49,101 nucleotides of DNA, taken from positions 1 through 49,101 of the IMG/VR virus record IMGVR_UViG_3300028840_002041; one strand, given 5' to 3'. Positions 5,150-31,000 of this stretch are shown here, piece after piece. A program made the translations under genes and the position numbers. Positions within the stretch are counted from its first letter, which is position 1; each line of letters begins with the position of its first letter. Under the pieces are notes generated by a model that worked only from the letters and a program-made list of their open reading frames with translations, made no database searches and was not told the origin of the DNA. Source of the stretch: a virus.

Positions 5150-5338
5150 TGGTGGCGTGTACCCTATAATTTTATATTTTTAATATTTCTATATTTTTAT
5201 TTTTTAATATTTATATTTCTAAAAAAAAGAGCGAACATTGGAGGTTTACTGGTTTAAAATATGGTATATATATATTATATTATTATATTATATTATTCCC
5301 ATGCTCGTTTTCACCACTACTGGTTCACTGGAGAGAAG
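5150..5338 (+). other. Very AT-rich noncoding leader
   Basis: Bases 5165-5230 are almost pure A/T with repeated TATATTTTTA-like units, and 5262-5297 is a run of TA/TAT repeats. I see no protein gene here: an ATG at 5261 is in frame with the following gene but would add low-complexity residues. Two similar words, GGTTTACTGG (5242) and GGTTCACTGG (5322), flank the second AT tract. Possible roles are a promoter region, a DNA-unwinding element or an mRNA leader; none is proven. Confidence 0.4.
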
Positions 5339-6088
5339 ATGTACAAAACCAATGAAGAAAGAAATTTAATTGATTCTTTCAAGAAAGATTTTCCACTATC
5401 ACTGCCTATGAATATTTGTATTAATACATTCAACAGGTTAGAATATTTAAAAAAATGTATTGCTTCTATTGTAGCTGGTACTACCATTCCCTATTTTTTA
5501 ACAGTAATTGATGATGGTTCTACAGATGGAACAGTAGAATGGTTGAGAGAAAAACAGAAACTTATTCCACAGATGGCTTCTCTACACCCAAAAGTAAAAC
5601 TTGGTTCAGCTAACTCATTGAACTATGTTGTAGCATCAACACAATCATCTGTTGTTACATTTGCTAACGATGATATGTGGTTCCACAAAGGGTGGGACAT
5701 AGCCTGTATCAGAATCATGTTGGAATATAATGATTGTGGGGCTGTCTCATTCTATGACTACACAGCACTGAAATTAAAACAAGGTGTATCAACTAAGCTA
5801 AGCGATTCAGTAATTAAAACTCCAGTCACAGGCTTAGGTGCTACAATGATAGTGAAAGATACATTCAATGATGTCGGTGGTTTCAAATTAAGACTTGACA
5901 AAACAATGGGTTATTTTGCTACCAAGTTCTGTCAGGAGATGCACAAGCTACCAAAAACAACAAGGAATCAACTCTATCAAACACTACCACATATGGCACT
6001 ACATATGGATGGAGTGAATTCAAAATTAAATGAGCGTGTTTATTCAACTAAGTCAGGATATGAACAGTACAGGAAGGAGCACAAGTAG
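5339..6088 (+). CDS. GT2-family glycosyltransferase (249 aa)
   Basis: I choose ATG 5339, which has SD GGAGAG just upstream, rather than the SD-less ATG 5261 in the AT tract. The protein has GT-A hallmarks: an N-terminal MNICINTFNRLEYL strand-helix, the nucleotide-binding DDGSTDGT motif (about residue 57), and a metal-binding DxD-like ANDDMWF (about residue 108). It probably transfers a sugar from a nucleotide-sugar donor in the cytoplasm. Its length is close to a bare GT-A catalytic domain. It is separated from the main carbohydrate cassette at 22837-30272 and may act with it. Confidence 0.85.
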   Translation: MYKTNEERNLIDSFKKDFPLSLPMNICINTFNRLEYLKKCIASIVAGTTIPYFLTVIDDGSTDGTVEWLREKQKLIPQMASLHPKVKLGSANSLNYVVASTQSSVVTFANDDMWFHKGWDIACIRIMLEYNDCGAVSFYDYTALKLKQGVSTKLSDSVIKTPVTGLGATMIVKDTFNDVGGFKLRLDKTMGYFATKFCQEMHKLPKTTRNQLYQTLPHMALHMDGVNSKLNERVYSTKSGYEQYRKEHK

Positions 6089-8569: not shown

Positions 8570-8624
8570 GGTTTTGATTCGATTGAAGATTGGTAATTGT
8601 ATAAATTAATAAATGGAGTTGGAA

Positions 8625-11600
8625 ATGAAAATCACAAAAGACAAATGTGGTAAAAAGGGAAGAAAGAAAAAAGGCATTAAGTTTTATAGTTCAATAGTTG
8701 TCTTACTATTGTTCACACTATTTATTGCCGATCTTGCCATACCGCAAATTAATGTTTTTGTAAGCCCTGAATTTGTAGCAAAATTACAAGCTGTAATTGA
8801 CGCACCGTATGATTTCAGCCCAGGTGGTTCATGGGATTGGAGTGGAGCTACAGTAACAAATTTGCCGACAAGTACAGGTGGAACATACATTGATTGGGAT
8901 TTAAACCCAACACTACCTGCTCCTCAACACCAAACCGGAAGAATGCACTGGTCTGCAGCAGATAATACGCTTGAAATCGGTATGCTTGGCAGTGATGTAG
9001 CATTACAGGTTGGTCAGGAAATTTTACTTTATGCTGAGAATAATTCTGGTGTAGCTATAAATAATGGTAAAGTTGCCTATGTATCTGGTTCAACTTCTAC
9101 TGATCCAGAGATTACAAAAGCAGATGCTGATGACCTAACAGCTTATCAAACAATTGGTGTAGCTACAGAGAGTATAGCAAATGGAGCAAGCGGATATGTG
9201 ACTACATATGGGCTTGTTCGTGGTTTAAACACAGATTCATGGGCAGCAGGGGCAATTTTGTATGTGTCTCAAACTGCAGGTGAAATAACAGATACAGAAC
9301 CAATAGCTCCAGCGCACTCAATTAGAGTTGGATACAATGTTGTCAAGGATGCTACAAATGGAGTTATTCTTGTAAGTACATTCCAAAAATACAAAGCTGA
9401 TGCTGATTCCTTGATGATCGGTATGGCCTATGATAAGCCAGCCATAACTCTTGTAGATGATAGCGGACTTAAAGTTGATGTTGAGAATATCAATACTGGT
9501 GATATGGAATTCAACATTGACGGGAAAAGGCTCACTCTTGATTGTACTACAGGAGCAGGAGCAGGTGGAAAAGCAAGAGCAAGTTTAACAGCTGGAGCAG
9601 ATGCAAACAATCCAATTACAAACTATATATATGTAGATGAAAGTGCAGGAGCAGCAAGATTACAGACTTCAACTTCACTGCCTACAGGAGCATTTGCTTG
9701 GATAGGGAAAGTTGTTGTACCTGATGCTACTACATTTGGTACAAATGGTTCTTATTTGTTTCAAAGATATACAGAATCAGTTAATGATGATCGTGGTCCA
9801 GTGTCGCATGAGAGAGAGAAATTGCGCCAGATGGGAGCCTTATGGTATTCAGGAGCAGCGCCAACATTAGATATTACAGTGAACGGTGGAGCACCTGATA
9901 ATGTTCATTTGAATACAGCATCAGGAACAGTTTATCAACTTCACAGACAAACTTGGCCGGCATTTACAGATGGGCCATATTATTATGGTAATGGTAGCAA
10001 TGTATATGAAAAGTTAACAGACTTGAATGCTGCTTTGAATTTGGATGACGGTACAGCAATCACAAATAATCAAAGATTCAATCTTGTTTTGTGGGGTGCT
10101 GTAAATTATTCATCTGGAGATTGTAAGCTATTTGTTAATTTACCGAACGGTACATATTTGAGTGATGGCAATGCTAAAGCTGACGTTAACAATACAGCCG
10201 ATTATTCTGTTCCTGCTGAGATGAGAAGTGTAGCATTTTTGATAGCAAGATTGGCTTTCAAATACACTACTGGTTCAAGTGGAACTTGGACAGAGTTAGA
10301 AACATATGATTTGCGTGGTGTCCCGTTCAGTTCAAGAACAGGTGGAGCTACAGTAACATCATCAAATGAATTTGACGATGCTTTATTTACTATTTATAAT
10401 AATGCTGATGCTACCAAGTCATTTGATTTTGATGCATCTGGAATAACAACCGGAACAGAAAGAACATTGACAGTTCAGGATGCAGATGGAACAATTGCTT
10501 ATACTGCTGACCAAGATACAACTGATCAAAATATCGTTAATTTGAGATCAAACGCACCAGAAAGTCCTTATTATTGGTTTGATGGTGTGGATGACGGTAT
10601 AGCTGTTAGTGATAATGACAATTTGACTTTTAGTGATTGTTCATTTTTATTTGAATTTGAAGCAAAAGAATATTCATCCAATATGCTGTTTGGGAAACAG
10701 AATACGGCTCAGTATGAATATGGAGTCTATATTGGAACTTCTGGAGAATTGATAATTACATTTTACGGTGCTTTAGATGCTTCAATATTTGTACGGTTTA
10801 CTACAGCTAATGGTATTGTTCTTGTTGACGAAACATATGTGCTGGCAGTAACTTTTGATCAATCAGAAGAGGATTGTATAGTGTATCTTGACGGAGAACC
10901 TGTTAGTGTCACTAAGTCGGAAGCTGGTTCATTTTCAGCTATGTTGAATGGAACAGGACAATTAGTCATTGGAAATAGGCAAAAAGATAATAATTTAGCA
11001 CACAATGGTAATATTGGAAAGTTAAAACTTTTCAACAAAGCCCTAACAGCAGCAGAGGTCAGAGAATATACCTATGGCGCTGTTGATTATAAGTATAAAG
11101 GTGCAAGTCAGACTGACTTAGTTACCAATAGCACATTTGATTCTGATGTTACTGGTTGGGGTGCAATAAATGGAACAATTGCTTGGGATAATACAGACAT
11201 TGGCGGTAATACTGCTCATGCAGAATTGACACGCACAAGTGGCAATGCATATTCAAGAATGAGTCCAAGATATTCTTTTTCAGCAGTAAAAAGTTTTAAA
11301 GCCTCAATTGATTATTATTGTCCATCTGGCCAATCTATAACATCAATAAGGTTTGGGATATTAAATCAATTAGATGCTAATCTTGTTAATGTTGATGATT
11401 TAACTACTAACACATGGACTACTCTTGAGTTGTATTTTACTTCAGATGGAACACAAACACAGTTATCACCTTATATAATGATATTAGGTGCATCTGGAAG
11501 TGATTATATTTATTTCGATAATGCGGAACTTACACAAATAGGCGAAGTAGCAGCCTATGAAGGCAGAGGAATTGACGACGGAATTTGGTATGATTCCGGT

Positions 11601-12332
11601 TCTAACGATCTTGATGGAACAGTATCAGGAGCAATAGCAAATAGTGCTATTCCATTCTGTTATATTGATGCTATAAATCCTGGTGCTAATGAATATCTGA
11701 TGAATATTGGTAAAACAGTTTCCGGTGTTAGAACAGACTTGGTAACATTAGATGAAGATGGCGATTTCTTTGTTAAGGGTTCATTTCTTGATTCAGATGG
11801 CGATGCTGGAACAGCAGGACAATTCCTTTCATCTACAGGAGCAGGTGCTACAAATTGGGCTGATGAATCTGCTGGTGGTGGGACTGATACTCTTGTAGTT
11901 GGTTCGATAAATAAGAATAGTGGTGTACCGTCAACAAAAGATATAGGCAATAATACTTGGACAAAAATAGATATGTGGAGTTCAACTAATACTTTTATTA
12001 ATTGTTCATATGATGGGACGAATAAAGGAATTAAAGTTGATTATAGTGGCCTTTATGAAATTACATGGGATGGTTCATTGAGAGCAAATGGCAGCGGTGT
12101 TAATGAGTATTCATTTAACATAGGTACTACTGGGTCAAGAATTGATCAGGGTAATGTAAGGATTGAATTAGATGCATCTAATAATTTATGGAGAGCAGCA
12201 TCATTGACTATACAAGCAGATATTGATGCAGATTCCACTATTTGTTTGTGGGGTATAAATGTTACAGATGGTGATGATATAACTATAAATGGTGGAGGCC
12301 TTGCAATAAAGAGATTGACATGGCAACACTAA
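8625..12332 (+). CDS. Giant fibre-type protein with N-terminal membrane segment (LamG, CBM-like, C1q-like)
   Basis: ATG 8625 is preceded by GGAGTTGGAA, a start region nearly identical to those at 12368 and 44430; the ATG at 8613 lies before the SD. A Lys-rich N-terminus (residues 1-20) is followed by one hydrophobic helix (about 21-42). Residues about 100-255 match a common phage-virion module (LQVGQE, IGVATE, GLVRGLN). Residues 645-817 form a LamG/concanavalin-type jelly roll (YYWFDGVDDGIAV start). Residues 834-970 resemble a carbohydrate-binding jelly roll. Residues about 1090-1235 look like a C1q-type trimeric tip (SGLYEITWDGSLRA). It is probably a receptor or glycan-binding fibre. The membrane anchor is unusual for a virion fibre. 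Confidence 0.75.
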   Translation: MKITKDKCGKKGRKKKGIKFYSSIVVLLLFTLFIADLAIPQINVFVSPEFVAKLQAVIDAPYDFSPGGSWDWSGATVTNLPTSTGGTYIDWDLNPTLPAPQHQTGRMHWSAADNTLEIGMLGSDVALQVGQEILLYAENNSGVAINNGKVAYVSGSTSTDPEITKADADDLTAYQTIGVATESIANGASGYVTTYGLVRGLNTDSWAAGAILYVSQTAGEITDTEPIAPAHSIRVGYNVVKDATNGVILVSTFQKYKADADSLMIGMAYDKPAITLVDDSGLKVDVENINTGDMEFNIDGKRLTLDCTTGAGAGGKARASLTAGADANNPITNYIYVDESAGAARLQTSTSLPTGAFAWIGKVVVPDATTFGTNGSYLFQRYTESVNDDRGPVSHEREKLRQMGALWYSGAAPTLDITVNGGAPDNVHLNTASGTVYQLHRQTWPAFTDGPYYYGNGSNVYEKLTDLNAALNLDDGTAITNNQRFNLVLWGAVNYSSGDCKLFVNLPNGTYLSDGNAKADVNNTADYSVPAEMRSVAFLIARLAFKYTTGSSGTWTELETYDLRGVPFSSRTGGATVTSSNEFDDALFTIYNNADATKSFDFDASGITTGTERTLTVQDADGTIAYTADQDTTDQNIVNLRSNAPESPYYWFDGVDDGIAVSDNDNLTFSDCSFLFEFEAKEYSSNMLFGKQNTAQYEYGVYIGTSGELIITFYGALDASIFVRFTTANGIVLVDETYVLAVTFDQSEEDCIVYLDGEPVSVTKSEAGSFSAMLNGTGQLVIGNRQKDNNLAHNGNIGKLKLFNKALTAAEVREYTYGAVDYKYKGASQTDLVTNSTFDSDVTGWGAINGTIAWDNTDIGGNTAHAELTRTSGNAYSRMSPRYSFSAVKSFKASIDYYCPSGQSITSIRFGILNQLDANLVNVDDLTTNTWTTLELYFTSDGTQTQLSPYIMILGASGSDYIYFDNAELTQIGEVAAYEGRGIDDGIWYDSGSNDLDGTVSGAIANSAIPFCYIDAINPGANEYLMNIGKTVSGVRTDLVTLDEDGDFFVKGSFLDSDGDAGTAGQFLSSTGAGATNWADESAGGGTDTLVVGSINKNSGVPSTKDIGNNTWTKIDMWSSTNTFINCSYDGTNKGIKVDYSGLYEITWDGSLRANGSGVNEYSFNIGTTGSRIDQGNVRIELDASNNLWRAASLTIQADIDADSTICLWGINVTDGDDITINGGGLAIKRLTWQH

Positions 12333-19259: not shown

Positions 19260-20975
19260 ATGTCTTACAGTTATCCACACAATGTACCTGAAATTATCAA
19301 AAATATTCCTACAGCTGCTCAAAAGCTGTTTGTTAGTGCTTATAATGCGGCATTAGCAAAAAGTGATGACGACAGTAAGTCTATTGATGACGGTTGGAGG
19401 TCAGTTAAGACAAAGTACAAAGAAGTAGATGGTGAATGGGTAAAGAAGAAACTATCAGTTCAGCTTGACGAACGGGTAGCCTTGGAAGAAGTGCCTGATT
19501 GTTTGCCGGATGATGTTTTAGAATTGCCTGGTCAATTGCCTACTGCTTGGGCTATGATCTTTAACAAGTTGTTGGACAAAAACATTAGCTTACCTATTGC
19601 ACGTGATAAATCTTGGAGCATAGTTAAAAAGTATGTTTACAAGGTTGAAGATGGGTGGAAGTTTAAACAACTGAGCCCTGTTGAAGAAATCTTGGCAAAA
19701 AACTTTAAAAATGATTCAACATTAAGGAAAGATCAAATGAAGGTAACTTTCTTCAAATCCAATGGAAAAGAAACTGATGGTGATTTCAAAGTTGTTATGG
19801 GAGCACAGTTTATTGAGAAATCAGTAGGCGGTGAAAAGAAACACTTTTTAAAAGGTGTTGCTTCTGGGAACTGGTTAGACAGGGAAGATGACATTGTAAT
19901 GCCTCCTTTTATCCAAAAGATGAGAGAAGTGGCAAAAGGATTGCCTGTTTTTACTGATCATGTACGTACTGATGAAAACATGATTGGTTCTGTTGTAGAA
20001 TTAGAGAGTGATGATGCTGATGTATTTGATCCAATCACAGAACTTGAACCTCCAAATGAAAACCAAATTGTAAAAAGACTACAAAAAAGAATGGCCAAAG
20101 GTATTAGTTATGGTTATTCCATAGGTGGTAAGATTACAAAGGCTGTTAAAGTTTGGGATGAAACGCTTCAAAAGTTTGTCCGTCAGATTATTGATGGAGA
20201 TATTTATGAAGTAAGTGTTGTACCAGTACCTGCTCTTGAAGGAACTGATGTAACAATGTTCAAGAAAACTTTTTCACCTGATTCATTTTTCGCTTCAACA
20301 GAAGTTGATCAAGATTACATTGACCTTGCAAAAAGTGCCGGAATCAATGTTGACAATCTTGATGAGGTAGTTAATGCTGTTGTTGAAGATGAAATAACAG
20401 ATGAACAAGTGTTCTGGCTTGATTTCGAGAAAGCTGTGGATAAGTTTGAGAAATTAAGCGAAAGCCAACCTAAAGATGTTGATATCAATAGTTTACCAAG
20501 ATCATGTTTTGCTAAAGCAACTGGAGACAATAGGGAAGAATGGAAATATCCTTATATGTACAAATGTGATACTGGATTGAATAAAGTCCACTATGGCTTG
20601 CTTGACAAAGCATTCAATGATGCGTCAATGGAAGATGATGAACGTGTATTTAATTTCTTGAAGAAAGTCAGAGGAAAACTTGGCTTGTCAGAAGTTGATT
20701 ACAACTTTGTTGATTTCCGTAAAGTATTGACCTCTACAATCACAGAAGCTGTTGAAGCACGTGAGGCCAGAGTTAAGTTGAATGATATACTCTGGGAGTT
20801 CCAAACCAATGTAGAGTTTGTAGCATTGAATGATTGGCAAGATACAGATGAAAAGATTGCTGACATAAAAGGATTGACAGCGCAATTGGTTGATGCCATT
20901 CAAACATTGTCAGAAGTTATTTCCCGCCAAGTTGTTGTTACGCTAAAATCACTATCCTTAGAAAATATGGAGTGA
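19260..20975 (+). CDS. Prohead protease with N-terminal ChaB-like repeats (571 aa)
   Basis: ATG 19260 has SD AGGAG. Residues 5-65 and about 80-135 are two ChaB-like units (P-E-I-I-K-N-I-P-T-A-A-Q-K-L-F...W-x-x-V-K-x-K-Y). Residues about 170-335 match the HK97-type capsid maturation protease, with the LKGVASGNWLDREDD segment, His234 in FTDHV, the I-S-Y-G-Y-S-I-G-G serine region near residue 282 and YEVSVVPVPA. A C-terminal domain with L-P-R-S-C-F-A (about residue 413) resembles a module seen in other phage proteins. The protease cleaves scaffold and capsid subunits in the prohead. ChaB fusion is uncommon; its role is unknown. Confidence 0.85.
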   Translation: MSYSYPHNVPEIIKNIPTAAQKLFVSAYNAALAKSDDDSKSIDDGWRSVKTKYKEVDGEWVKKKLSVQLDERVALEEVPDCLPDDVLELPGQLPTAWAMIFNKLLDKNISLPIARDKSWSIVKKYVYKVEDGWKFKQLSPVEEILAKNFKNDSTLRKDQMKVTFFKSNGKETDGDFKVVMGAQFIEKSVGGEKKHFLKGVASGNWLDREDDIVMPPFIQKMREVAKGLPVFTDHVRTDENMIGSVVELESDDADVFDPITELEPPNENQIVKRLQKRMAKGISYGYSIGGKITKAVKVWDETLQKFVRQIIDGDIYEVSVVPVPALEGTDVTMFKKTFSPDSFFASTEVDQDYIDLAKSAGINVDNLDEVVNAVVEDEITDEQVFWLDFEKAVDKFEKLSESQPKDVDINSLPRSCFAKATGDNREEWKYPYMYKCDTGLNKVHYGLLDKAFNDASMEDDERVFNFLKKVRGKLGLSEVDYNFVDFRKVLTSTITEAVEAREARVKLNDILWEFQTNVEFVALNDWQDTDEKIADIKGLTAQLVDAIQTLSEVISRQVVVTLKSLSLENME

Positions 20976-21721: not shown

Positions 21722-22726
21722 ATGCCAGATTTAGGCTCACTACAAGATGCTCTGAACAAAGCCCTGACAACTGCTGGTGGTGAAGGTGGCGATTTTTTGC
21801 CAACTCCGCTTGCCAACACTTTCATTGACCTTGTTCGGGATAAAAATGTTTTCAGACAAATTCACCGTGTTGTGAATATGCCTGGTAAAACATTTGATTA
21901 CCCAAAGATTCTTTCCGGCCCAACGGTGTATTATGAATCAACAGAGCTTACACAAGAAGCTGTTGAAACAACTATCACCACCGGAACTGTGCGTTTGACC
22001 GCACGCAAATTCATGGCGCAAATCAAAGCCTCTGAAGAGGTTTTCGAGGATGCCAATCAGGATATGGACTCTATTATTGAACAACATTTCGTTGCTGGCC
22101 TCGCTGAAGCTGAGGAAGAAACAATGTTGGTAGGTGATAGAACACATACCGCCACAGCACTTTCTCCATCTGTTGCTACAGATGGTAACTGGTATTCCAA
22201 AGACCATCGTTTGGCTTGGAATGGCATCCTTACACTTGCTGGTGATATTGTAGGTACATTGTCTCAGGGCAATCGTGCTGCTAACCGTGTCGATGCAGGT
22301 GGAGCAGGAATGTCAACTCAGTTGGTGCGTCAATTGCTGTACAACCTTGGAAAATATGGCCGTACAATGAGTAATATCGTACTGTATATGAATCCTTGGT
22401 CAGCGAATCAATTGCTCGATGACTCCAAATTGGTAACTGTGGACAAGTATGGTCCATCCGCAACAATCCACACAGGTGAATTTGGAAAACTGTATGGAAA
22501 AATCACTGTTATTAATAGTGATAAATGTACCGATCAGTATGCTGTTGGTACCCATATTTCCAACCCTGTAATTGGTGATCGTCGGAAAATCAAATTGCGT
22601 AAAGAAGACATCATTGAATATGATGCACGTAGAGTTGTTATCAGCCAGCGTGCAGACATGAAGGTAGAGCACCAGGATGCGCTCTGCCAAATTCATGATC
22701 TTGATGCTCCAAGCACCTGGTCGTAA
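21722..22726 (+). CDS. Major capsid protein (334 aa)
   Basis: The ATG follows GGAG (21712-21715). The sequence fits an HK97-fold capsid protein: an N-terminal G-G-D-F-L-P-T-P-L segment, an E-loop region (PGKTFDYPKILSGPTVYY), the spine-helix region (E-V-F-E-D-A-N-Q-D-M-D-S-I-I-E-Q) and the A-domain C-terminus (EHQDALCQIHDL). It lies directly after protease and scaffold. Codons are more G+C-rich than in neighbouring genes, as expected for a very highly expressed product. It is followed by a strong terminator. Cleavage of a long delta domain is not obvious, since the N-terminus is short. Confidence 0.88.
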   Translation: MPDLGSLQDALNKALTTAGGEGGDFLPTPLANTFIDLVRDKNVFRQIHRVVNMPGKTFDYPKILSGPTVYYESTELTQEAVETTITTGTVRLTARKFMAQIKASEEVFEDANQDMDSIIEQHFVAGLAEAEEETMLVGDRTHTATALSPSVATDGNWYSKDHRLAWNGILTLAGDIVGTLSQGNRAANRVDAGGAGMSTQLVRQLLYNLGKYGRTMSNIVLYMNPWSANQLLDDSKLVTVDKYGPSATIHTGEFGKLYGKITVINSDKCTDQYAVGTHISNPVIGDRRKIKLRKEDIIEYDARRVVISQRADMKVEHQDALCQIHDLDAPSTWS

Positions 22727-22768: not shown

Positions 22769-22813
22769 GCTGGAAGTCGGTTTAATTACTGGCTTCCAGC
22801 TTTTATTTTTTTT
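22769..22813 (+). terminator. Strong intrinsic terminator after the capsid gene
   Basis: GCTGGAAG (22769-22776) pairs perfectly with CTTCCAGC (22793-22800), followed by TTTTATTTTTTTT. It isolates the capsid operon from the carbohydrate cassette that follows. Confidence 0.85.
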
Positions 22814-22836
22814 AAGTAGAGAAGATTGGAGAGAAG

Positions 22837-25005
22837 ATGGAATACCCCAGCAAGAATTTAATAGATGATGAAGCAAGAAAAGAAGCACAACCGGATAAAT
22901 TCCCCTCACATGTGGGCCAAAAGGATCAACCTTTAAATGATGGAGTTAATCTTGTCAACAATGATGAGATATTCTCTATTACACTTACCAAAAAATTTAT
23001 CAACAAATCAAATAGAACTGAGATACAAAACTTGCTATCACTGGCATCATCTCCTATGTTCTTGAAAATCCCTAATGAAAATGAAGTAGGATTTGGAGAA
23101 TTTCACCCTACAATAAAAGAAAAAAGTAACATTGTTATCTTTATGGATATGCTACACCATTATACAGGTGGTAGATATTCTATATTTCAACAAGCAGTAT
23201 TGCTTGGTGAACACTTTGGGGTAACTCTGGTAACTGATAAAAAGCCTCCATTTGTAAATGATTTCAAATCATATTCAGGTTTTGGAAATGTAAAGATTGT
23301 AGTTGATCCTAATTGGTTACAATCATACAACAAAAATCCATTTGATTTAGTAATTGGTATTCCAAATGTATCTGCCCAGTATGCCCACGAGTATGCTAAG
23401 AAATTCAGATTGCCATTTTACTGTTACATGTTTGAATCCCCAAATTATGTGTCTGAATTTAGAGATGGAGTGGATGCTACAGAGGAATTTTGGGCAAATT
23501 TCAAAAGAACAATTGTCCATGCTGATATGAGAATTACTCCATCAAAAACAAGTATGGAGTATTTGAAAAAGTGGTTAGGTTCAGATGATGGTAAATATGG
23601 GTATGTATATCCTTGTTTTAATAAAAATGTAGCAGACAGATTTTTAGATACACCAGAAAGTAGAAAGGCAACCAAAATTTACGACTTGGTAATGCTGTCC
23701 AGAATTGCTGAATTTAAGAATCCTGCACCTATATTCAAGTTGCTCAATAAAATGCTTAAAAGCAAAATAAGAGTGGCGATTGTTGGTAGAAATTTGACTA
23801 ATTTTGACTTTGTCAATACGTTTGATAAAATCGAAATAGACTTATTTGATACTGGAATAAATGATGAGAAGAAATACAAAATCCTGTCACAATCAAAGAT
23901 TGGTATTGTACCTTCAAAATTTGAAGGCTATGGAATGCCACCGCAAGAATTTCTATATTTCAATGTACCTTGTATAGCATATGATTTACCTGTTTTAAGG
24001 GAAGTGTATGGTGATAAAATATCATATGTTAAAACAGAGAAAAATTTTGCTATAAAGATATTTACAATGTTGAAAAGCTACAAGCCTGTTAATAAACCAA
24101 CTACAGGTTTAACTACACCAGAGGTTACAAAGGAGCAATTCTTGAAATTACTACCAATCAAGAATGAACCGAAAGTTGCTATTGGAATCTTAGCGTTCAA
24201 TTGTATTGATTATCTTGATAGTGTAATCAGATCAGTCTATGACGTTGTAGATCAAATAATCATTGTTGAAGGAGCAGTCGGTAACATGAAACATTGCTCC
24301 AATAATTCAGGCCATTCCATAGATGGTACATTTGATGCCATTATAAATGATGAATTGTATGATCCAGACAAGAAAATAAAAATAGTTATGAAAAGAAAAG
24401 GCTATTGGAAGAACAAAATTGAGATGCAAAACGAGATAGCCAAAAGAGTCAGAGCCAAATATTATATAAAGATGGATGCTGATGAGATATGGAAACCTGA
24501 AACTGTAACTAAGATTGTTAAATTCTTGGATGAAAATGAAAATATTGATGTAATTAGGATGCCTTTTCATCATTTTTGGACATCTTTTGGTATAGTAGCC
24601 ACAGATTCTGGAGGTAAGTGGTCAACTAAGCATCCAAGAGTGTGGAGATGGAGGGAAACATTCAGGCATATCAGTTCATTTAACTTTTTTGTTGACAAGG
24701 CAACCGGAAATAAGGTTGATGAGAACAGTTACAATTATTATGTTTGGAAAAATGATCATATTTACCATATGGGATATGCCAGAACAAATGAAAGAGTGGA
24801 TGAAAAATTAAAATATTATGGTGCCAGAAAGATTGAGAATTTTGTCGATAAGAATAGATACAAAAATTGGAAAGATGGAGACAAAACTCAACCAACACAA
24901 GATACACCAAGCGGTTCAGTGAAGTTTTCAAGAAAAGATTTGCCAACAGTATTAAAAGAACACTATTATTATAAACTAAAAGACATCAGAGGTTACAATG
25001 GATAA
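22837..25005 (+). CDS. Two-domain glycosyltransferase (GT4-like plus GT2-like, 722 aa)
   Basis: The start has SD GGAGAG, as at 5339. Residues about 80-415 look like a GT-B (GT1/GT4) enzyme: I-V-I-F-M-D-M...T-G-G-R-Y-S, a V-M-L-S-R-I-A-E-F-K-N-P strand, and the donor-binding SKFEGYGMPPQEF motif (about residue 365). After a linker, residues about 445-640 form a GT-A domain with I-G-I-L-A-F-N-C-I-D-Y-L and an MDADEIW metal site (about residue 548). Two transferase domains in one chain suggest sequential sugar additions to one acceptor. The first about 75 residues are unique to this protein. It opens the cassette just after the capsid terminator. Confidence 0.85.
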   Translation: MEYPSKNLIDDEARKEAQPDKFPSHVGQKDQPLNDGVNLVNNDEIFSITLTKKFINKSNRTEIQNLLSLASSPMFLKIPNENEVGFGEFHPTIKEKSNIVIFMDMLHHYTGGRYSIFQQAVLLGEHFGVTLVTDKKPPFVNDFKSYSGFGNVKIVVDPNWLQSYNKNPFDLVIGIPNVSAQYAHEYAKKFRLPFYCYMFESPNYVSEFRDGVDATEEFWANFKRTIVHADMRITPSKTSMEYLKKWLGSDDGKYGYVYPCFNKNVADRFLDTPESRKATKIYDLVMLSRIAEFKNPAPIFKLLNKMLKSKIRVAIVGRNLTNFDFVNTFDKIEIDLFDTGINDEKKYKILSQSKIGIVPSKFEGYGMPPQEFLYFNVPCIAYDLPVLREVYGDKISYVKTEKNFAIKIFTMLKSYKPVNKPTTGLTTPEVTKEQFLKLLPIKNEPKVAIGILAFNCIDYLDSVIRSVYDVVDQIIIVEGAVGNMKHCSNNSGHSIDGTFDAIINDELYDPDKKIKIVMKRKGYWKNKIEMQNEIAKRVRAKYYIKMDADEIWKPETVTKIVKFLDENENIDVIRMPFHHFWTSFGIVATDSGGKWSTKHPRVWRWRETFRHISSFNFFVDKATGNKVDENSYNYYVWKNDHIYHMGYARTNERVDEKLKYYGARKIENFVDKNRYKNWKDGDKTQPTQDTPSGSVKFSRKDLPTVLKEHYYYKLKDIRGYNG

Positions 25006-26245
25006 AGTGATCAAAAGAGAAGGTAAGAATTTTACACACGATATTGAACTTGATTCTGGTAAGAGCTTTGTTGTACCAATGATAGAGAAAGCAAAGTTTG
25101 AACAAGATGATATTGGTGGTTCAAAGAACATTGTACAAAATGAGATGGTCATTCATCCTTTACAGATTCAGAAGGAAGTGTTCAAGCCAAGAGATACACC
25201 ATTGAGTGTTAATTATGAAAGTGACAAGCCTTATCTTAGTTGGAAGGTGAATATAGCATCTTGGTCTGATGTTGACAAAAGGACTTTTGCTTGTTGGGGT
25301 GATCATTGGGTGAAAGTAAGATTGGCAGAGGAGTTAGAGAAGTTAGGTTGTGTCACTGATGTAGAATTGGATCAGGCTGATGTAACAATTTACTTGTTTG
25401 GTTCACCATTTAATTTTAGAAAGAAAAGACCATATCACTACAATCCATTATCTTACAATGTAGTGTGGTTCTATTCTCATCCAGAAAAATTCTCTCAACA
25501 GGAAGCGGCAAGATATGATCATATCTTCTGTTTATCAAAACAATATTTGGAAACCATTAAAGAAGGTTTTCATCATACTGTAGAAGATGAACCACTTTAC
25601 AGTTGTACAAATTTTACAACTCCAGTTAATCTTCCATATGGTAGAGATAAAAGAATCGCTATGGTAGCAAATGCAAGAGGTGCTGGAGCACCATATGGTA
25701 GAGAAGTGATCAAATTATTGAAACCACTCAAGTCTTGGATGGAAAGTAAAGAATTGAGAATGGAAGTTTGGGGTCACAAGTGGGATCAATTTGATAAATA
25801 CAATCAATTTCCAAAAGAATGGTATGTTGATAAGTATTACCCATATGATGATTTGGATAGGCTTTACAGAACTTCAAAAGCTGTAATAATTGATGGTCAT
25901 CCTGAGATGGAAGAACACGGTTTTGTACCTATGAAGATATTTGATGTATTTGCCTCTGGTGGTATGCCAATTATCAAAAGGAATGCCGGAACAACAGAGA
26001 TGTTTGGTGATTATGTTCTACAATATGATAGTGTAGCAACATTAAAAGAGTGCTTGGAAGTTCTTGATGATAGGGCTGAGTGCTTTAAGATAATCAAAAA
26101 AGGTAGAACACTTGCCTATAAACATACATATGCCAATAGAGCTAAAAAGATTATGGACTCTATTGCTGATAGTGTTATTGGTACAGATCAATTGAAGATA
26201 CCAGAGAGTGGCAACAAGGCAAAGGATAAAATAGTATGGTTATAA
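24998..26245 (+). CDS. Glycosyltransferase, GT-B/CgeB-like (415 aa)
   Basis: The gene overlaps the previous one by 8 bases with SD AGAGG. Residues 80-240 contain a Rossmann-like half with polar N-terminal leader. The C-terminal half carries V-W-G-H-K-W-D, Y-Y-P-Y-D-D-L-D-R-L-Y-R-T-S-K and F-V-P-M-K-I-F-D-V-F-A-S-G-G-M-P, the pattern of the CgeB/Glyco_trans_1_2 group of GT-B enzymes. It probably transfers a hexose or amino sugar. Acceptor and donor cannot be read from sequence. No signal or membrane segment is seen, so it acts in the cytoplasm. Confidence 0.75.
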   Translation: MDKVIKREGKNFTHDIELDSGKSFVVPMIEKAKFEQDDIGGSKNIVQNEMVIHPLQIQKEVFKPRDTPLSVNYESDKPYLSWKVNIASWSDVDKRTFACWGDHWVKVRLAEELEKLGCVTDVELDQADVTIYLFGSPFNFRKKRPYHYNPLSYNVVWFYSHPEKFSQQEAARYDHIFCLSKQYLETIKEGFHHTVEDEPLYSCTNFTTPVNLPYGRDKRIAMVANARGAGAPYGREVIKLLKPLKSWMESKELRMEVWGHKWDQFDKYNQFPKEWYVDKYYPYDDLDRLYRTSKAVIIDGHPEMEEHGFVPMKIFDVFASGGMPIIKRNAGTTEMFGDYVLQYDSVATLKECLEVLDDRAECFKIIKKGRTLAYKHTYANRAKKIMDSIADSVIGTDQLKIPESGNKAKDKIVWL

Positions 26246-26973
26246 TTAAACCAGAATTATTCATACTCACTTACAATAGGCTTGAGTATTTAAAACTTTG
26301 TTTAGAATCTGTATGGAATCAAACATTGAAAGTTCCAATAAATATTTGGGATAATGGTTCTACAGATGGAACAAGAGAATACTTGACAGACCTTTACAAG
26401 AATGATAAGTTGAATGGTGGTAAATTCTTTGACAATGCTTCTAATGTTGGAATAGCTGAAGCAAGGAATAAAGGATTGGAGCTTATCAAGAATACTTGTA
26501 TCATTATATCAGATGATGATATGTATTATGTTGATAAGAACTATTTTAAACATATGTTTAATTGTTGGAATCATTTGGTAAAGAAGCATACAAGAATTGC
26601 TGTTTTATCAAATTACCATCCATTTGATAAAGGCAAGTATAGTGAAAAGATTTTCAAAGAAGCATATTTGTTTGGCAAATATGAATTGCACTATATAACA
26701 GGATCACCTCCAGGTAATTGGATGCTTGATAAAGAAGTTATTTTGTCAATGAATGGATTCAGAATACCAAATGGTAAGAAGATGGGATTTGCTGCTTATC
26801 ATTTGAATAAGAGAATAAGTAATTCAGAATTTCCATTTGTAAGGATAGATAAAATTGATGGAAAAGTTTACAAAGGTGTGGAGCATATTGATACTGTTGA
26901 TCACCCTATGAACAAAAGGGACAATTACAAAGAGTACATTGAATTCAGAATCAGAGAGAAGGGTAAAGATTGA
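26236..26973 (+). CDS. GT2-family glycosyltransferase (245 aa)
   Basis: It overlaps the preceding gene by 10 bases and uses AAAGGA as SD. GT-A motifs are clear: FILTYNRLEYLKLCLESV at the N-terminus, DNGSTDGT (about residue 38), N-V-G-I-A-E-A-R-N-K-G (about residue 73), and SDDDMYYVD (about residue 93). The later G-S-P-P-G-N-W-M-L-D segment is the usual acceptor-side loop. It resembles the enzyme at 5339 in size and motif layout, so the two may be distant paralogues. Confidence 0.88.
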   Translation: MVIIKPELFILTYNRLEYLKLCLESVWNQTLKVPINIWDNGSTDGTREYLTDLYKNDKLNGGKFFDNASNVGIAEARNKGLELIKNTCIIISDDDMYYVDKNYFKHMFNCWNHLVKKHTRIAVLSNYHPFDKGKYSEKIFKEAYLFGKYELHYITGSPPGNWMLDKEVILSMNGFRIPNGKKMGFAAYHLNKRISNSEFPFVRIDKIDGKVYKGVEHIDTVDHPMNKRDNYKEYIEFRIREKGKD

Positions 26974-27953
26974 TGGTAAAGCCTAAATTATTGTATATTG
27001 GAACATTTACAGGGAATTGGGTATCAGATCAATTTAGAGAAACTGGCTTCAAACGCCACTTTGATGTAAGAATATTTGATTACAGAGCATATTCTAAAAC
27101 AGATTATATGAATATGAACAATGAATTGTTCAAAGCTGTATATGAATTTGGACCTGATTTAATATTTGTCAACAAAGGTGAAGTAATTTCACCAATGATC
27201 ATCAAGAGAGTGAAATCAATATTCCCTAATTGCAAGGTTTTCATTTTCAATGGAGATCAAAGAGGTAGAATACAAGATGAAACTGTTAGACTTGGTTCAG
27301 TTTCTGATGCTATATTGATAAATAACAATCATGATGAACAGTGGAGTCAATATTATGATGCTGGAGTGAAAAAGATATATGAGTATCACACAGCAACAGA
27401 TGCTAATACATTCAAAAATGTAAAGGTAGATAAGAAATTTGATGTAGTATTTGCCGGTGGTCACTATGGAACAAGATTCCCTTTGTCTAAATTTAGACAT
27501 CAATGTTTAGTTGGATTATCTAAAAACTTTAAACTTGGTATAGCAGGTGGTAGAAATTGGACTTCATTCAGTGGAATGGAATATGTTGGTCCAAAATATA
27601 GAGGTTCATTGACTGGATTTCTTAATTCAGGTAGGTGTATTCTTGGAATAAATGCTTTTAATGACATAAAGAATTATACCAGCAATAGAACTTGGGTATC
27701 AATGTCTACAGGAGTTCCATATGTCTGTCATACGTATGCTGGTATAAATAATTTCTTTAAACACAAACAAAACATACTTGTCTTTAAAACTGTAGATCAA
27801 TGTATAGAAACAGTTAGATGGGTATTGAAAAATCAACCAGAAGCAAGAAAAATTGGAATGGCTGGAAGAACACTTGTAAAAAGTAAACATTCATATTATA
27901 ATAGGTCTGAACAGTTGTTGGAAATTTGGAAGGAAGTGAAAGATGAAGCCTAA
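26973..27953 (+). CDS. CgeB-like glycosyltransferase (326 aa)
   Basis: ATG 26973 shares its A with the upstream TGA. The protein has two Rossmann-like halves. The N-terminal half has L-L-Y-I-G-T-F, F-G-P-D-L-I-F-V-N-K-G and K-V-F-I-F-N-G-D. The C-terminal half has D-V-V-F-A-G-G-H-Y-G-T-R, Y-V-G-P-K-Y and S-N-R-T-W-V-S-M-S-T-G-V-P-Y-V. This is the CgeB/DUF3880-type pattern often found in polysaccharide and flagellin-glycosylation clusters. Substrates are unknown. It is the fourth glycosyltransferase gene of the window and lies mid-cassette. Confidence 0.78.
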   Translation: MVKPKLLYIGTFTGNWVSDQFRETGFKRHFDVRIFDYRAYSKTDYMNMNNELFKAVYEFGPDLIFVNKGEVISPMIIKRVKSIFPNCKVFIFNGDQRGRIQDETVRLGSVSDAILINNNHDEQWSQYYDAGVKKIYEYHTATDANTFKNVKVDKKFDVVFAGGHYGTRFPLSKFRHQCLVGLSKNFKLGIAGGRNWTSFSGMEYVGPKYRGSLTGFLNSGRCILGINAFNDIKNYTSNRTWVSMSTGVPYVCHTYAGINNFFKHKQNILVFKTVDQCIETVRWVLKNQPEARKIGMAGRTLVKSKHSYYNRSEQLLEIWKEVKDEA

Positions 27954-28650
27954 AAGAAAGAATATCAATACACCTCCATATTGGGATGAAAAGTATAAAG
28001 GACTTGGAAAGCCAGAGAGAATCCTTTATTCACCACATAAGAATATGTATGAGAAGATTTGTGATTTAATCTTTTCATTCAAGCACGATAAAATGGTTGA
28101 TGTAGGTGCCGGCACTTGTGTGATAGCATTTCTATTGGAGAAAAGAAATTTTCATTTCAAAGATAGATATATGTTAAACATTGATCATTCAAAAGTTGGT
28201 TTAGAAATAGGTCAAACAAGGTTGAAAGAAACCAATGTTGATATTGATATCAAGGTTTCTGACATAACAAAGCCTATTGATATGAGTGATATGGAGCACC
28301 AAGACAATTATGACTTGGTTACATGTTGCGAGGTCTTGGAACATTTAACTGAACCAGTGCTTGCTTTGAAGAATATGGAGAAGCTGGTTTCAGACAAAGG
28401 TAGGGTGATTGTTTCAGTTCCACACGGTAGATCACCCTACAAAGATCATTATTGGATCAGTATTGACAATGAAACTATGGTTGGTTGGCACGAAGCTGTA
28501 GGGTTGACTGTTGATACAATTACAATAGTAGATAGATGGAAAATATTCATAAGCAGGAAGATTACAAAAGAAGATGCTGAAAGGATGTTAAGTAATGAAA
28601 GTAAACGCAGAGTCAAAGCCGATTTATGTATTCCAGTCAAAGCTGAATAA
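27943..28650 (+). CDS. SAM-dependent class I methyltransferase (235 aa)
   Basis: The gene overlaps its neighbours on both sides (11 and 56 bases). Motif I is MVDVGAGTCV (about residues 51-60). The acidic residue after strand 2 is in L-N-I-D-H-S, and motif post-II/IV is LVTCCEVLEHL, typical of small-molecule and sugar methyltransferases. An N-terminal P-P-Y-W-D-E-K-Y element is characteristic of this type. In a sugar cassette it most likely O- or N-methylates a sugar residue; that is inference. Confidence 0.85.
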   Translation: MKPKRKNINTPPYWDEKYKGLGKPERILYSPHKNMYEKICDLIFSFKHDKMVDVGAGTCVIAFLLEKRNFHFKDRYMLNIDHSKVGLEIGQTRLKETNVDIDIKVSDITKPIDMSDMEHQDNYDLVTCCEVLEHLTEPVLALKNMEKLVSDKGRVIVSVPHGRSPYKDHYWISIDNETMVGWHEAVGLTVDTITIVDRWKIFISRKITKEDAERMLSNESKRRVKADLCIPVKAE

Positions 28651-29785
28651 AAAATCAATTGAACTTGCCAATCAAGTTATGGCTGATGGATGGATTGGAC
28701 TTGGTAAGGTAACAGAGAAGTTTGAAAGAGAATTTGCTGAATATTGCGGAGCAAAATATTGTGTAGGTCTTAATTCAGCTACATCAGCACTACATATAGC
28801 ATTAAAGTGTGCTGGAGTTAAATCTAAAGACAGAGTTATGTCTACACCATTAACATTTGTAAGCACTAATGCTGCTATACAATATTTGGGTGCTCGTCCA
28901 GAATTTTGCGATGTTGACCCAGCTACACTTACTCAATCACCTGAAATATATCTTGATAGAATTAAATTCCATTATAGTCAGGCAAATGTTCTTCCAAGAT
29001 ATGCTGTTCATGTTCATTTTGGTGGTTTAGCTATGGAACCATCAATTATGGAGATGATTGAATCACAGTGTGGAATAACTTTAATAAATGACTATGCCCA
29101 TTGTGCCGGAGCAAAACATTTTGATGGTTCAATGGCTGGTTCATATGGTGATTTCAACACATTTTCATTCCATGCTGTAAAGAATCTACCATCACCTGAT
29201 GGCGGTGCTCTTGTTACAAATAATGAACATGTTTATAAAAGAGCGAAAAAGTTGAGATGGTTAGGTATAAGTCAAGATACCTTTTCAAGAACTGCAACCA
29301 AGGGTAGAAATAAATATAGTTGGATATACAATGTAGATGAACTTGGTTGGAAGTATCATATGAATGACCTTACTGCAGCAATACTTCTTGGCGGTCTTGA
29401 AACACTTGATAAAGATAATGCAAGGCGCAGAGAGATACGGGAAAAATACAGAGAAGGGATTGTTAATGGCTTTATAAAGCCACTTGGAAATCAAGGGTAT
29501 CAATCTGGACATATGGCAATATATCAAGTCCCTAAAGGTTGCAATAGAGATATTGTAATTGAAAGATTGAAAAGTGAATTTAACATACATCCTGGAGTAC
29601 ACTATATTCCTAATTATCAATTTAAACCATTTAAAGATAATACAATAGATTATCCATCTGATCCATCAACTTGGATTGTAAATGATATTTGGGAAGAGTT
29701 AATAACATTGCCGTGTCACCTGTTGATGTCAGATTCAGATATAAATAGAGTGATTGAAGCTGTCAATACAATATGTGGTGATTAA
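28595..29785 (+). CDS. DegT/DnrJ/EryC1-type sugar aminotransferase (396 aa)
   Basis: This is a PLP enzyme that converts a nucleotide-linked keto sugar to an amino sugar, usually with Glu as donor. Visible hallmarks are G-L-N-S-A-T-S-A-L-H-I-A-L (phosphate-binding, about residues 58-70), T-F-V-S-T-N-A-A-I, Asp166 in INDYAHCAGA (pyridine nitrogen) and Lys196 in FSFHAVKNL, the Schiff-base lysine. Length is typical. The 4-keto sugar would have to come from a dehydratase not present here, so probably from the host. The start overlaps the methyltransferase gene by 56 bases. Confidence 0.9.
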   Translation: MKVNAESKPIYVFQSKLNKKSIELANQVMADGWIGLGKVTEKFEREFAEYCGAKYCVGLNSATSALHIALKCAGVKSKDRVMSTPLTFVSTNAAIQYLGARPEFCDVDPATLTQSPEIYLDRIKFHYSQANVLPRYAVHVHFGGLAMEPSIMEMIESQCGITLINDYAHCAGAKHFDGSMAGSYGDFNTFSFHAVKNLPSPDGGALVTNNEHVYKRAKKLRWLGISQDTFSRTATKGRNKYSWIYNVDELGWKYHMNDLTAAILLGGLETLDKDNARRREIREKYREGIVNGFIKPLGNQGYQSGHMAIYQVPKGCNRDIVIERLKSEFNIHPGVHYIPNYQFKPFKDNTIDYPSDPSTWIVNDIWEELITLPCHLLMSDSDINRVIEAVNTICGD

Positions 29786-29786
29786 T

Positions 29787-30272
29787 GTGAAAGCAATAAA
29801 ATATAAAAAAGCTGATTCAACTCATATAAAGATGGTTTATTTGATCAGGAATAATCCACTGGTAAGGAAAGAGTTGATTTGCGATGGTGATATAAATTAT
29901 CTCCAACATATAGAGCATTACAACAAGATGTTAGAGGATAGAAATTATTCAATCTATGTTATGTATTATGGAAGCTGGATCATAGGGTTCTATAATGTAA
30001 TTGTAGATAGAAATAAAAAAGAGGTTGAGATTGGTTACAAACTATCACCTACATTTTGGGGTAAAGGTCTTGGAAAGATAATGTTCAGAGATTCTTTGTC
30101 AAAGGTAAAAAAGTTGTATCCCAAATATGGTATCATCTTGACTGTATTCAAGGACAATGAGAAAGCTGTGAAGATATACAAGAGTGGAGGGTTCAAATTG
30201 TCAGGGGCAAAGAAGGTTAGAGACAGATTATTATACACAATGAAATTACATAACTTAAAAAGTAATATTTAG
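29787..30272 (+). CDS. GNAT-family N-acetyltransferase (161 aa)
   Basis: GTG 29787 lies one base after the aminotransferase stop (TAATGTG); upstream in-frame codons fall inside that gene. The GNAT core is clear: E-V-E-I-G-Y-K-L-S-P-T-F-W-G-K-G-L-G-K (acetyl-CoA loop, about residues 82-100) and N-E-K-A-V-K-I-Y-K-S-G-G-F-K (about residues 125-138). With the adjacent aminotransferase it forms the classic pair that makes N-acylated amino sugars (as in PseC/PseH or WecE/WecD). It ends the cassette, and a class II promoter palindrome overlaps its last codons. Confidence 0.85.
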   Translation: MKAIKYKKADSTHIKMVYLIRNNPLVRKELICDGDINYLQHIEHYNKMLEDRNYSIYVMYYGSWIIGFYNVIVDRNKKEVEIGYKLSPTFWGKGLGKIMFRDSLSKVKKLYPKYGIILTVFKDNEKAVKIYKSGGFKLSGAKKVRDRLLYTMKLHNLKSNI

Positions 30273-30312
30273 ATATAATACTTTTAAATTACAAATATTT
30301 TTAATATATTTA
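30250..30312 (+). promoter_or_regulatory. Class II (putative late) promoter with upstream palindrome
   Basis: The imperfect palindrome ATAACTTAAAAAGTAAT (30250-30266) lies in the 3' end of the acetyltransferase gene and begins 55 bases before TATATTTA (30305-30312). The 16-base word ATATTTACACTGTAT plus flanks is shared with the copy at 19229. It would drive the connector and tail genes. Confidence 0.65.
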
Positions 30313-30343
30313 CACTGTATGAAACCTAATGGAGTTATGTATA

Positions 30344-31000
30344 ATGGCCTATATTGAATGGGACAAAATTTTAAAAGATGATTCAAGCACAGTATCAACT
30401 GAATTTAAAGCAATAGCAGAGCAGCTTGTAAAAACAATGCTGCTTTCTGTGTTCAATAGTGATTTTGAGAAGCATACAATATCAACATCATCACCAGAGT
30501 TACACGATATTGGTAATAATCAAGCAACTCTGATATTGAAGAATTTTCCTGTTATCACTTTTACTGAATTGAAAGATAATGTAAGGGATGATGATAATGT
30601 AACTGCTTTAGTTGAGAACACAGATTTTGTAGTTGATTACACTTGTGGTATTGTAAAAATAGCTCCAACAATTGAAGCATCTAATTTGTTAAGGCGCATA
30701 ACTACATTTACAGTTGGTCCAGCAATGGTTAGTGTAGCTTATGTTTATGGTTACGAATCAATACCGGATGACATCCAAGGATTTATCAATGTATGGGCAA
30801 GTCAATTATATAAAACATTTCAGAAAACATTTCAAAATATCAATGATGCTGTTGAGATTGAAATGGCTGATTACAGGAAGAAAATTGGAACAGTCGCTCA
30901 AAGCCTATTGGCAACAAATACATATGTAATGTCAATGTTGCCTGGTCTCAAAAGTAATTATGCTAATTATGTAGAACTTGGAACCAAACCACGTTATTAA
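30344..31000 (+). CDS. Head-tail connector / adaptor protein (218 aa)
   Basis: ATG 30344 has SD GGAG at 9 bases. The middle of the protein has a beta region ending V-S-V-A-Y-V-Y-G-Y followed by P-D-D-I-Q-G-F-I-N-V-W-A, the pattern of gp6/gp15-type head completion proteins (x-Y-x-x-G-Y, then P-x-D-I-x-x-A helix). It is first in the tail operon, as expected for an adaptor that binds portal. It is longer than the usual 100-150 residues because of N- and C-terminal extensions. Confidence 0.65.
   Translation: MAYIEWDKILKDDSSTVSTEFKAIAEQLVKTMLLSVFNSDFEKHTISTSSPELHDIGNNQATLILKNFPVITFTELKDNVRDDDNVTALVENTDFVVDYTCGIVKIAPTIEASNLLRRITTFTVGPAMVSVAYVYGYESIPDDIQGFINVWASQLYKTFQKTFQNINDAVEIEMADYRKKIGTVAQSLLATNTYVMSMLPGLKSNYANYVELGTKPRY

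Follow-up and report, generated by a model that had tools for sequence, protein, structure and literature searches.

A putative virion-glycosylation module in the head operon of an uncultured tailed-phage lineage

A block of seven carbohydrate-enzyme genes was found at positions 22769-30312 of the IMG/VR virus record IMGVR_UViG_3300028840_002041, analysed over its whole length of 49,101 bases (hereafter, the window). The block lies between the genes for the major capsid protein and the head-tail connector, and it is best read as an integral part of the head operon that glycosylates the virion, with a probability of about 0.7 on the comparative evidence given below. The first gene of the block encodes a glycosyltransferase (GT) of two domains, GT4 and GT2 (hereafter, GT4-GT2). 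Across an uncultured lineage, this gene has been kept beside the capsid gene while the capsid proteins diverged to 36-42% identity, and the amino-sugar, methyl, pyruvyl and extra-GT steps change around it. Among tailed phages, virion glycosylation has been described in a few mycobacteriophages; if the reading is true, surface sugars would be a core, evolving property of these particles and not an accessory one.

Linkage of the capsid and GT4-GT2 genes

Relatives of the window were gathered with capsid and portal queries, which gave viral contigs and one contig of a metagenome-assembled genome (MAG), and a GT4-GT2 query added the contigs L032, L033, L035, L039, L040 and L041. The capsid gene was followed by GT4-GT2 in 14 out of 14 distinct contigs (the window counted, the near-identical L005 not), with gaps ranging from 33 to 4,001 bases and capsid identities from 78% down to 36%. 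To avoid the circularity of finds made with GT4-GT2 itself, the contigs retrieved by the capsid and portal queries were considered apart, and the enzyme was present in all eight that were long enough to tell (G001, L014, L005, L016, L017, L019, L021 and L025). Upstream of GT4-GT2, a homologous capsid gene was likewise found in all six contigs added by the enzyme query, at 63% down to 36% identity. Moreover, the capsid and GT4-GT2 trees gave the same phage groups, and their identity matrices agreed with a Mantel r of 0.82, which was reached in 0 of 10,000 permutations. These groups were unchanged in both trees although GT4-GT2 diverges much faster, being 45% identical between the window and G001, compared with 78% for the capsid protein. 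The active-site residues E363-x7-E371 and D547-x-D549 of GT4-GT2 were kept in all aligned sequences covering them.

A preliminary description of this DNA had listed seven overlapping genes, which were recovered as consecutive open reading frames on the + strand, overlapping end to start, from 22837 to 30272. The extra GT2 that it had placed at 5339 was also found, as a gene starting slightly upstream. The features of the region, all on the + strand, are as follows:

21722-22726, +, HK97-type major capsid protein (PF05065, TIGR01554), C-terminus PSTWS, candidate acceptor
22769-22800, +, terminator-like hairpin with T tail, 3' of the capsid gene (hairpin scan)
22837-25005, +, GT4-GT2 two-domain glycosyltransferase, 722 amino acids (PF00534 and PF00535 in one protein)
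22849-22866, +, SKNLID, copy of the shared motif, disordered N-terminal tail of GT4-GT2
24998-26245, +, CgeB-type GT-B glycosyltransferase 1 (CgeB1), 415 amino acids (PF13524), orthologs in the same slot
25019-25138, +, disordered N-terminal tail of CgeB1 with EGKNFTH, SGKSFVV and GSKNIVQ (the last at 25118-25138)
26236-26973, +, GT2 glycosyltransferase, 245 amino acids (PF00535), accessory, copy number varying among relatives
26970-27953, +, CgeB-type glycosyltransferase 2 (CgeB2), 327 amino acids (PF13524), orthologs in the same slot
27943-28650, +, class I S-adenosylmethionine methyltransferase, 235 amino acids (PF13847, Methyltransf_31; PF08241, Methyltransf_11)
28595-29785, +, DegT-family sugar aminotransferase, PseC/ArnB-like, 396 amino acids (PF01041, 250 bits)
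29754-30272, +, GNAT acyltransferase, 172 amino acids (PF00583, Acetyltransf_1; best NCBIfam match PseH, TIGR03585, 53 bits, under the cut-off)
30329-31000, +, head-tail adaptor (connector), downstream border (phrog_442)
5261-6088, +, separate upstream GT2 (PF00535), N-terminal region ERNLID, orthologs in G001 (46%) and G003 (38%)
8613-12332, +, putative decoration protein of 1239 amino acids, possible acceptor, with cement-like, sialidase-N/LamG-like and weak carbohydrate-binding-module stretches

The GT genes thus sit inside the head/tail structural operon, in the order capsid, block, connector, both in the window and in the relatives, and the upstream GT2 probably belongs to the same pathway. 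The same slot of G001 (90 kb) holds GT4-GT2, CgeB1, GT2, CgeB2, an extra GT2, a methyltransferase, two GT-A-like proteins, another methyltransferase, DegT and GNAT before the connector. This order was found with changes in L017 (capsid identity 76%), L016/G003 (58%) and L021 with two near-identical copies (55%), while L025 (58%) has a similar block with no DegT or GNAT in the part that its contig covers. In L014 and L005 (75%), the block starts alike and the contigs then end. The minimal form appeared in L035, with the capsid gene, GT4-GT2, one small gene and the connector, and L039 is alike as far as its contig runs. The locus therefore has a constant part, the capsid-GT4/GT2 pair, and a variable part made up of the amino-sugar and extra-GT genes, with DegT followed by GNAT in six phages. 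Among the variable genes, a polysaccharide pyruvyl transferase (PF04230) lies within the block of L033 (13819-14631), where the glycan may be pyruvylated, and a 276-residue protein within that of L021 (17689-18519) looks polysaccharide-deacetylase-like by eye, with no Pfam match.

The block had been described earlier as a self-contained cassette, with the suggestion to look for it at other sites in related phages. An unbroken run of overlapping genes, preceded by a terminator, would suit a mobile carbohydrate island that was recently acquired and landed here by chance, and an unrelated phage (L004, IMGVR 3300033150_001155) carries a comparable set of DegT, GNAT, GT and methyltransferase genes in its head-tail region. 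However, the search among relatives placed the block in the capsid-connector slot in every one of them, including distant ones, the trees are congruent, and the G+C content is only slightly under that of the flanks. A mobile insertion is refuted by the fixed slot and the congruent trees for the core, and it is scarcely credible for the locus as a whole; its weaker form, namely turnover of accessory genes inside a fixed slot, holds. In L004 (3783-16125), a GT4 gene is found between two HK97-type capsid-like genes, followed by DegT, GNAT, several GT2, a methyltransferase domain and a sulfotransferase-like gene before the tail genes, apparently the same idea assembled independently.

The terminator reported after the capsid gene was confirmed as a hairpin at 22769-22800 with a 13-bp stem, seven G-C pairs and a T-rich tail. 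It is by far the strongest of seven terminator-like matches, the number of which equals the mean in shuffled sequence (5.9). A hairpin with a T-run begins 22-45 bases past the capsid stop codon in 9 of the 14 phages, with unrelated sequences, and several of the others have a hairpin after the capsid gene without a clear T-run. A position kept without its sequence fits an attenuator holding enzyme levels below capsid levels, which the hairpin of the window probably is, judging from these sequence features. As for the class II promoter proposed before the connector, only chance-level signals were found: the best site (30283-30310, TTTAAA-16-TATATT) scores 9/12, and the region has 62 promoter-like sites against 55.7 ± 7.7 in shuffled sequence.

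Predicted chemistry and target of the glycan

The pairing of an aminotransferase with an acetyltransferase, proposed earlier as the route to N-acyl amino sugars, holds with the closest NCBIfam relatives and with the joint occurrence of both genes in the six phages mentioned above. DegT belongs to the DegT/DnrJ/EryC1/StrS sugar aminotransferases by its PF01041 score of 250 bits and its pyridoxal-phosphate lysine, K196 in FSFHAVKN, which is invariant in five phages and aligns with that of ArnB. Its best NCBIfam match, PseC, scored 246 bits against a curated cut-off of 423.5, and that of GNAT, PseH, scored 53 against 93.1. Since neither cut-off was reached, the two proteins are read only as a 4-aminotransferase and an N-acyltransferase for a nucleoside diphosphate (NDP)-4-keto-6-deoxysugar; the pseudaminic acid pathway proper was rejected on these scores and because no PseB-like gene was found in five phage records. 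No Epimerase-family or NTP_transferase gene was detected in the four phage records searched, which may be incomplete, so the sugar precursor is probably supplied by the host. The MAG holding L017, subject to the binning of that contig, has a dTDP-glucose 4,6-dehydratase above the cut-off, PseB relatives below threshold only, and no GDP-mannose dehydratase above the cut-off. That contig, DYLM01000005.1, comes from a MAG that bears the name Chloroherpeton thalassium (isolate SulCav...) and, if binned correctly, may point to a Chlorobiota host.

In the proposed sequence of events, the enzymes would be translated from readthrough past the post-capsid hairpin, late and in lower amounts than the capsid protein. 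DegT and GNAT would convert a host-supplied NDP-4-keto-6-deoxysugar into an NDP-4-acylamino-4,6-dideoxysugar, as expected from their families. GT4-GT2 would add the initial sugars to a virion protein and extend them, the capsid or a decoration protein being the likeliest acceptor, after which CgeB1, CgeB2 and the GT2 enzymes may lengthen the chain and the methyltransferase may cap it. Regarding the acceptor, the C-terminal residue of the capsid protein is Ser in 14 out of 14 phages and its last seven residues hold 2-5 Ser/Thr, which makes the capsid C-terminus a candidate site on sequence grounds. C-terminal glycans have been reported on the capsid and tail tube of Mycobacterium phages (PMC12619734). 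Between GNAT and the connector, L043 encodes a protein whose cement domain scores above the cut-off and which is related to the N-terminal part of the putative decoration protein of the window. Another protein of the GNAT-connector interval, in L016 (14634-17408), has 924 residues with repeats of ~24 residues (SDGxKxGD...) and is a possible particle fibre or glycan acceptor.

The enzymes might instead alter the host surface polysaccharide or the glycans of surface proteins late in infection, for instance to block superinfection or to keep progeny from being lost on debris. The accessory genes do vary by phage as in surface-polysaccharide loci (GT2 copies, methyltransferases and the pyruvyl transferase of L033), and PseC/ArnB/PseH-like enzymes are typical of surface glycans. 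However, the block has no membrane-spanning GT, flippase or polymerase, and GT4-GT2 is strictly linked to, and co-inherited with, the capsid gene, so that a host-surface role is considered unlikely. The features of gtr-type serotype conversion were also lacking: no hydrophobic segment was found in the seven block proteins (19-residue Kyte-Doolittle maximum of 1.37), and no phage integrase (PF00589) was found in five records, the latter making a lasting host conversion unlikely.

Phage GTs can also glycosylate modified DNA bases, as T4 AGT and BGT do. Decoration of such bases to evade restriction would be in line with the general GT-B fold shared by CgeB1 and T4 AGT (Z about 21). Nevertheless, neither a thymidylate-synthase-type hydroxymethylase (PF00303) nor a C5 DNA methylase (PF00145) was found in five phage records, some perhaps incomplete, and the block adjoins the capsid gene and not the replication genes; a search for Tet/JBP enzymes was silent in its controls and is uninformative here. 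On the records searched, DNA-base glycosylation is considered very improbable.

Overall, the capsid linkage, the placement among late genes, the soluble enzymes, the lack of an integrase and of a base hydroxymethylase in the records searched, and the post-capsid hairpin favour the virion over the host surface or DNA as the target. Virion glycosylation, as suggested in the preliminary description, remains the best-supported reading on comparative evidence, namely the capsid-GT linkage and the lack of serotype-conversion or DNA-modification features, while the insert with a promoter of its own was abandoned. Several points weigh against virion glycosylation. The evidence is entirely comparative and comes from metagenomic, incomplete contigs. 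A late position in the head operon could also serve changes of the host surface late in infection. Furthermore, fold matches fail to separate protein from other acceptors, T4 AGT scoring like the rest. The acceptor of CgeB1 was sought from its fold and this approach was dropped, as Foldseek ranked the protein GTs SdgB and Gtf3 first but the VIA ranking put PimA, SenB, MshA and T4 AGT level. SunS, at rank 49 for GT4-GT2 in the fold comparison, was likewise dropped as acceptor evidence.

A terminal motif shared by the glycosyltransferases

GT4-GT2 and CgeB1 are different proteins, yet their disordered N-terminal tails (residues 1-35 and 1-74, respectively) carry a common motif with the consensus [GST]-x-[KR]-N-[IFL]-[IVL]-[ND], which was counted when it lay in the first 50 or the last 20 residues of a protein. 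The copies found in GT4-GT2 were SKNLID, GSKNIIN, TSKNIID, GNKRILN, TGKNLLT, GKNFVN and TKNFVE, and those in CgeB1 were GSKNIVQ, GDKNFVD, DKNIIS, GNKHILN, GSRNILN, GLRDIVN and SSKNFLN. Out of 273 predicted genes of these phages, 17 had the motif; 16 of them encode GT or GT-like proteins (14 being GT4-GT2 or CgeB1) and the other a tape measure protein. In CgeB2 of L025, the motif is found at the C-terminus (GSSKNIVG). The same holds for a 290-residue GT-A-like protein in G001 whose gene is distant from the block; it ends in GTSKNILTL and resembles a protein of the G001 cassette that has no Pfam match of its own. With a loosened pattern, 18 out of 18 tails matched, compared with 0.58 expected after shuffling, statistics that are descriptive because the motif was set after the first matches were seen and later loosened, and orthologs are not independent. 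In loci added later, the motif was found in GT4-GT2 of L032 (DRKNFVD), in a 562-residue PF13524 GT of L033 (NSKNILN) and in CgeB1 of L043 (TKNIIN), while GT4-GT2 of L019 and L033 carry it with K for N; the matches outside GTs were one tape measure protein and one terminase. GT4-GT2 of the deep branch formed by L035, L039 and L040 lacks the motif and has other conserved ends.

The motif offers a starting point for learning how such enzymes reach their target, and it could be of use as a tag that directs enzymes to a shell or to an enzyme complex. It probably gathers the enzymes on one partner, which would be either the assembling particle or the enzymes themselves. Docking of the GTs by a portable recruitment peptide on the assembling HK97-fold particle or its scaffold, in the manner of encapsulin cargo, so that glycosylation would be coupled to assembly and the peptide, besides the active site, would pick the virion as the target, is put forward tentatively, with the odds well against it. 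Alternatively, the motif may hold the enzymes together in a complex, and the deep branch, which has only one GT and lacks the motif, would fit this option at least as well as docking. Both tails may also come from one duplication, although simple inheritance is less likely given that the motif has moved to the C-terminus in two other GTs. The deep-branch enzymes (L035, 8234-10528; L039, 9851-12211; L040, 7248-9503) have an N-terminal M-[ST]-x-R-Q-x-x-R-R and a C-terminal SPxK stretch, perhaps another docking signal. Moreover, the starts of the tape measure proteins of L028 (3802-8769, GRNFVE) and L033 (19114-22122, DKNFIE) resemble the GT motif, by chance or through a shared binding partner.

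Comparison with known systems

No tblastn match to GT4-GT2, CgeB1 or CgeB2 was found in 50,697 phage records (E 1e-5), with Corndog gp38 and Che8 gp110 not compared directly or by profile, and the window had no nucleotide similarity to phage records. Compared with phages, GT4-GT2 of L040 and L041 gave one short weak match each, to unannotated faecal scaffolds. Within the reach of these searches, three features appear to be new: the pairing of capsid and GT4/GT2 across the lineage, a DegT-GNAT module placed in the head operon of a phage, and the terminal motif that the GTs share.

Phage virion glycosylation as a kind is already known, capsid and tail-tube glycosylation having been reported in Che8, Corndog and Myrna (PMC12363180). 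In Corndog (Cluster O), gp35-gp38 comprise a methyltransferase and several GTs embedded in the head genes (PMC4351075), as here, but in the portal-protease interval instead of the capsid-connector one; the window differs further by DegT and GNAT, the capsid-tied GT4-GT2 fusion and the shared terminal motif. The viosamine island of P. syringae similarly combines an aminotransferase, an acyltransferase, a methyltransferase and a GT, which equip a protein polymer with a methylated 4-acylamino-4,6-dideoxysugar (PMC3927599). That island is bacterial and its target is flagellin, whereas the present block belongs to the head operon of a phage, includes CgeB-type GTs and lacks acyl-carrier genes. Closer to a viral setting, the Vio4NAc cluster of Mimivirus is virus-encoded and provides the particle with an amino sugar that is N-acetylated and partly methylated (PMC10117803); however, it belongs to a eukaryotic giant virus, its glycan is on fibrils and its nucleotide-sugar route was predicted and validated, while the phages searched here lack the dehydratase step. 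Among NCBIfam and PDB entries, the closest relatives of DegT and GNAT are PseC/PseH and ArnB-type enzymes, with the lysine noted above in common and with the scores and the missing PseB as differences. Finally, encapsulin cargo peptides are short and terminal, on enzymes encoded beside an HK97-fold shell, usually at the C-terminus and at the N-terminus in some ferredoxins (PMC8346489). The phage motif (K-N-I/F-I/V-N/D) departs from the encapsulin consensus, SDGSLGIGSLKRS, its carriers are phage GTs, and shell binding is putative here.

A defence role for the block was rejected, with one incidental PADLOC methyltransferase match as the sole hit, and an Rfam search of the window gave no match. 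Upstream of the capsid gene, the prohead protease (Peptidase_S78) at 19260-20975 is fused behind an N-terminal ChaB domain, and the same N-terminal start is found in relatives.

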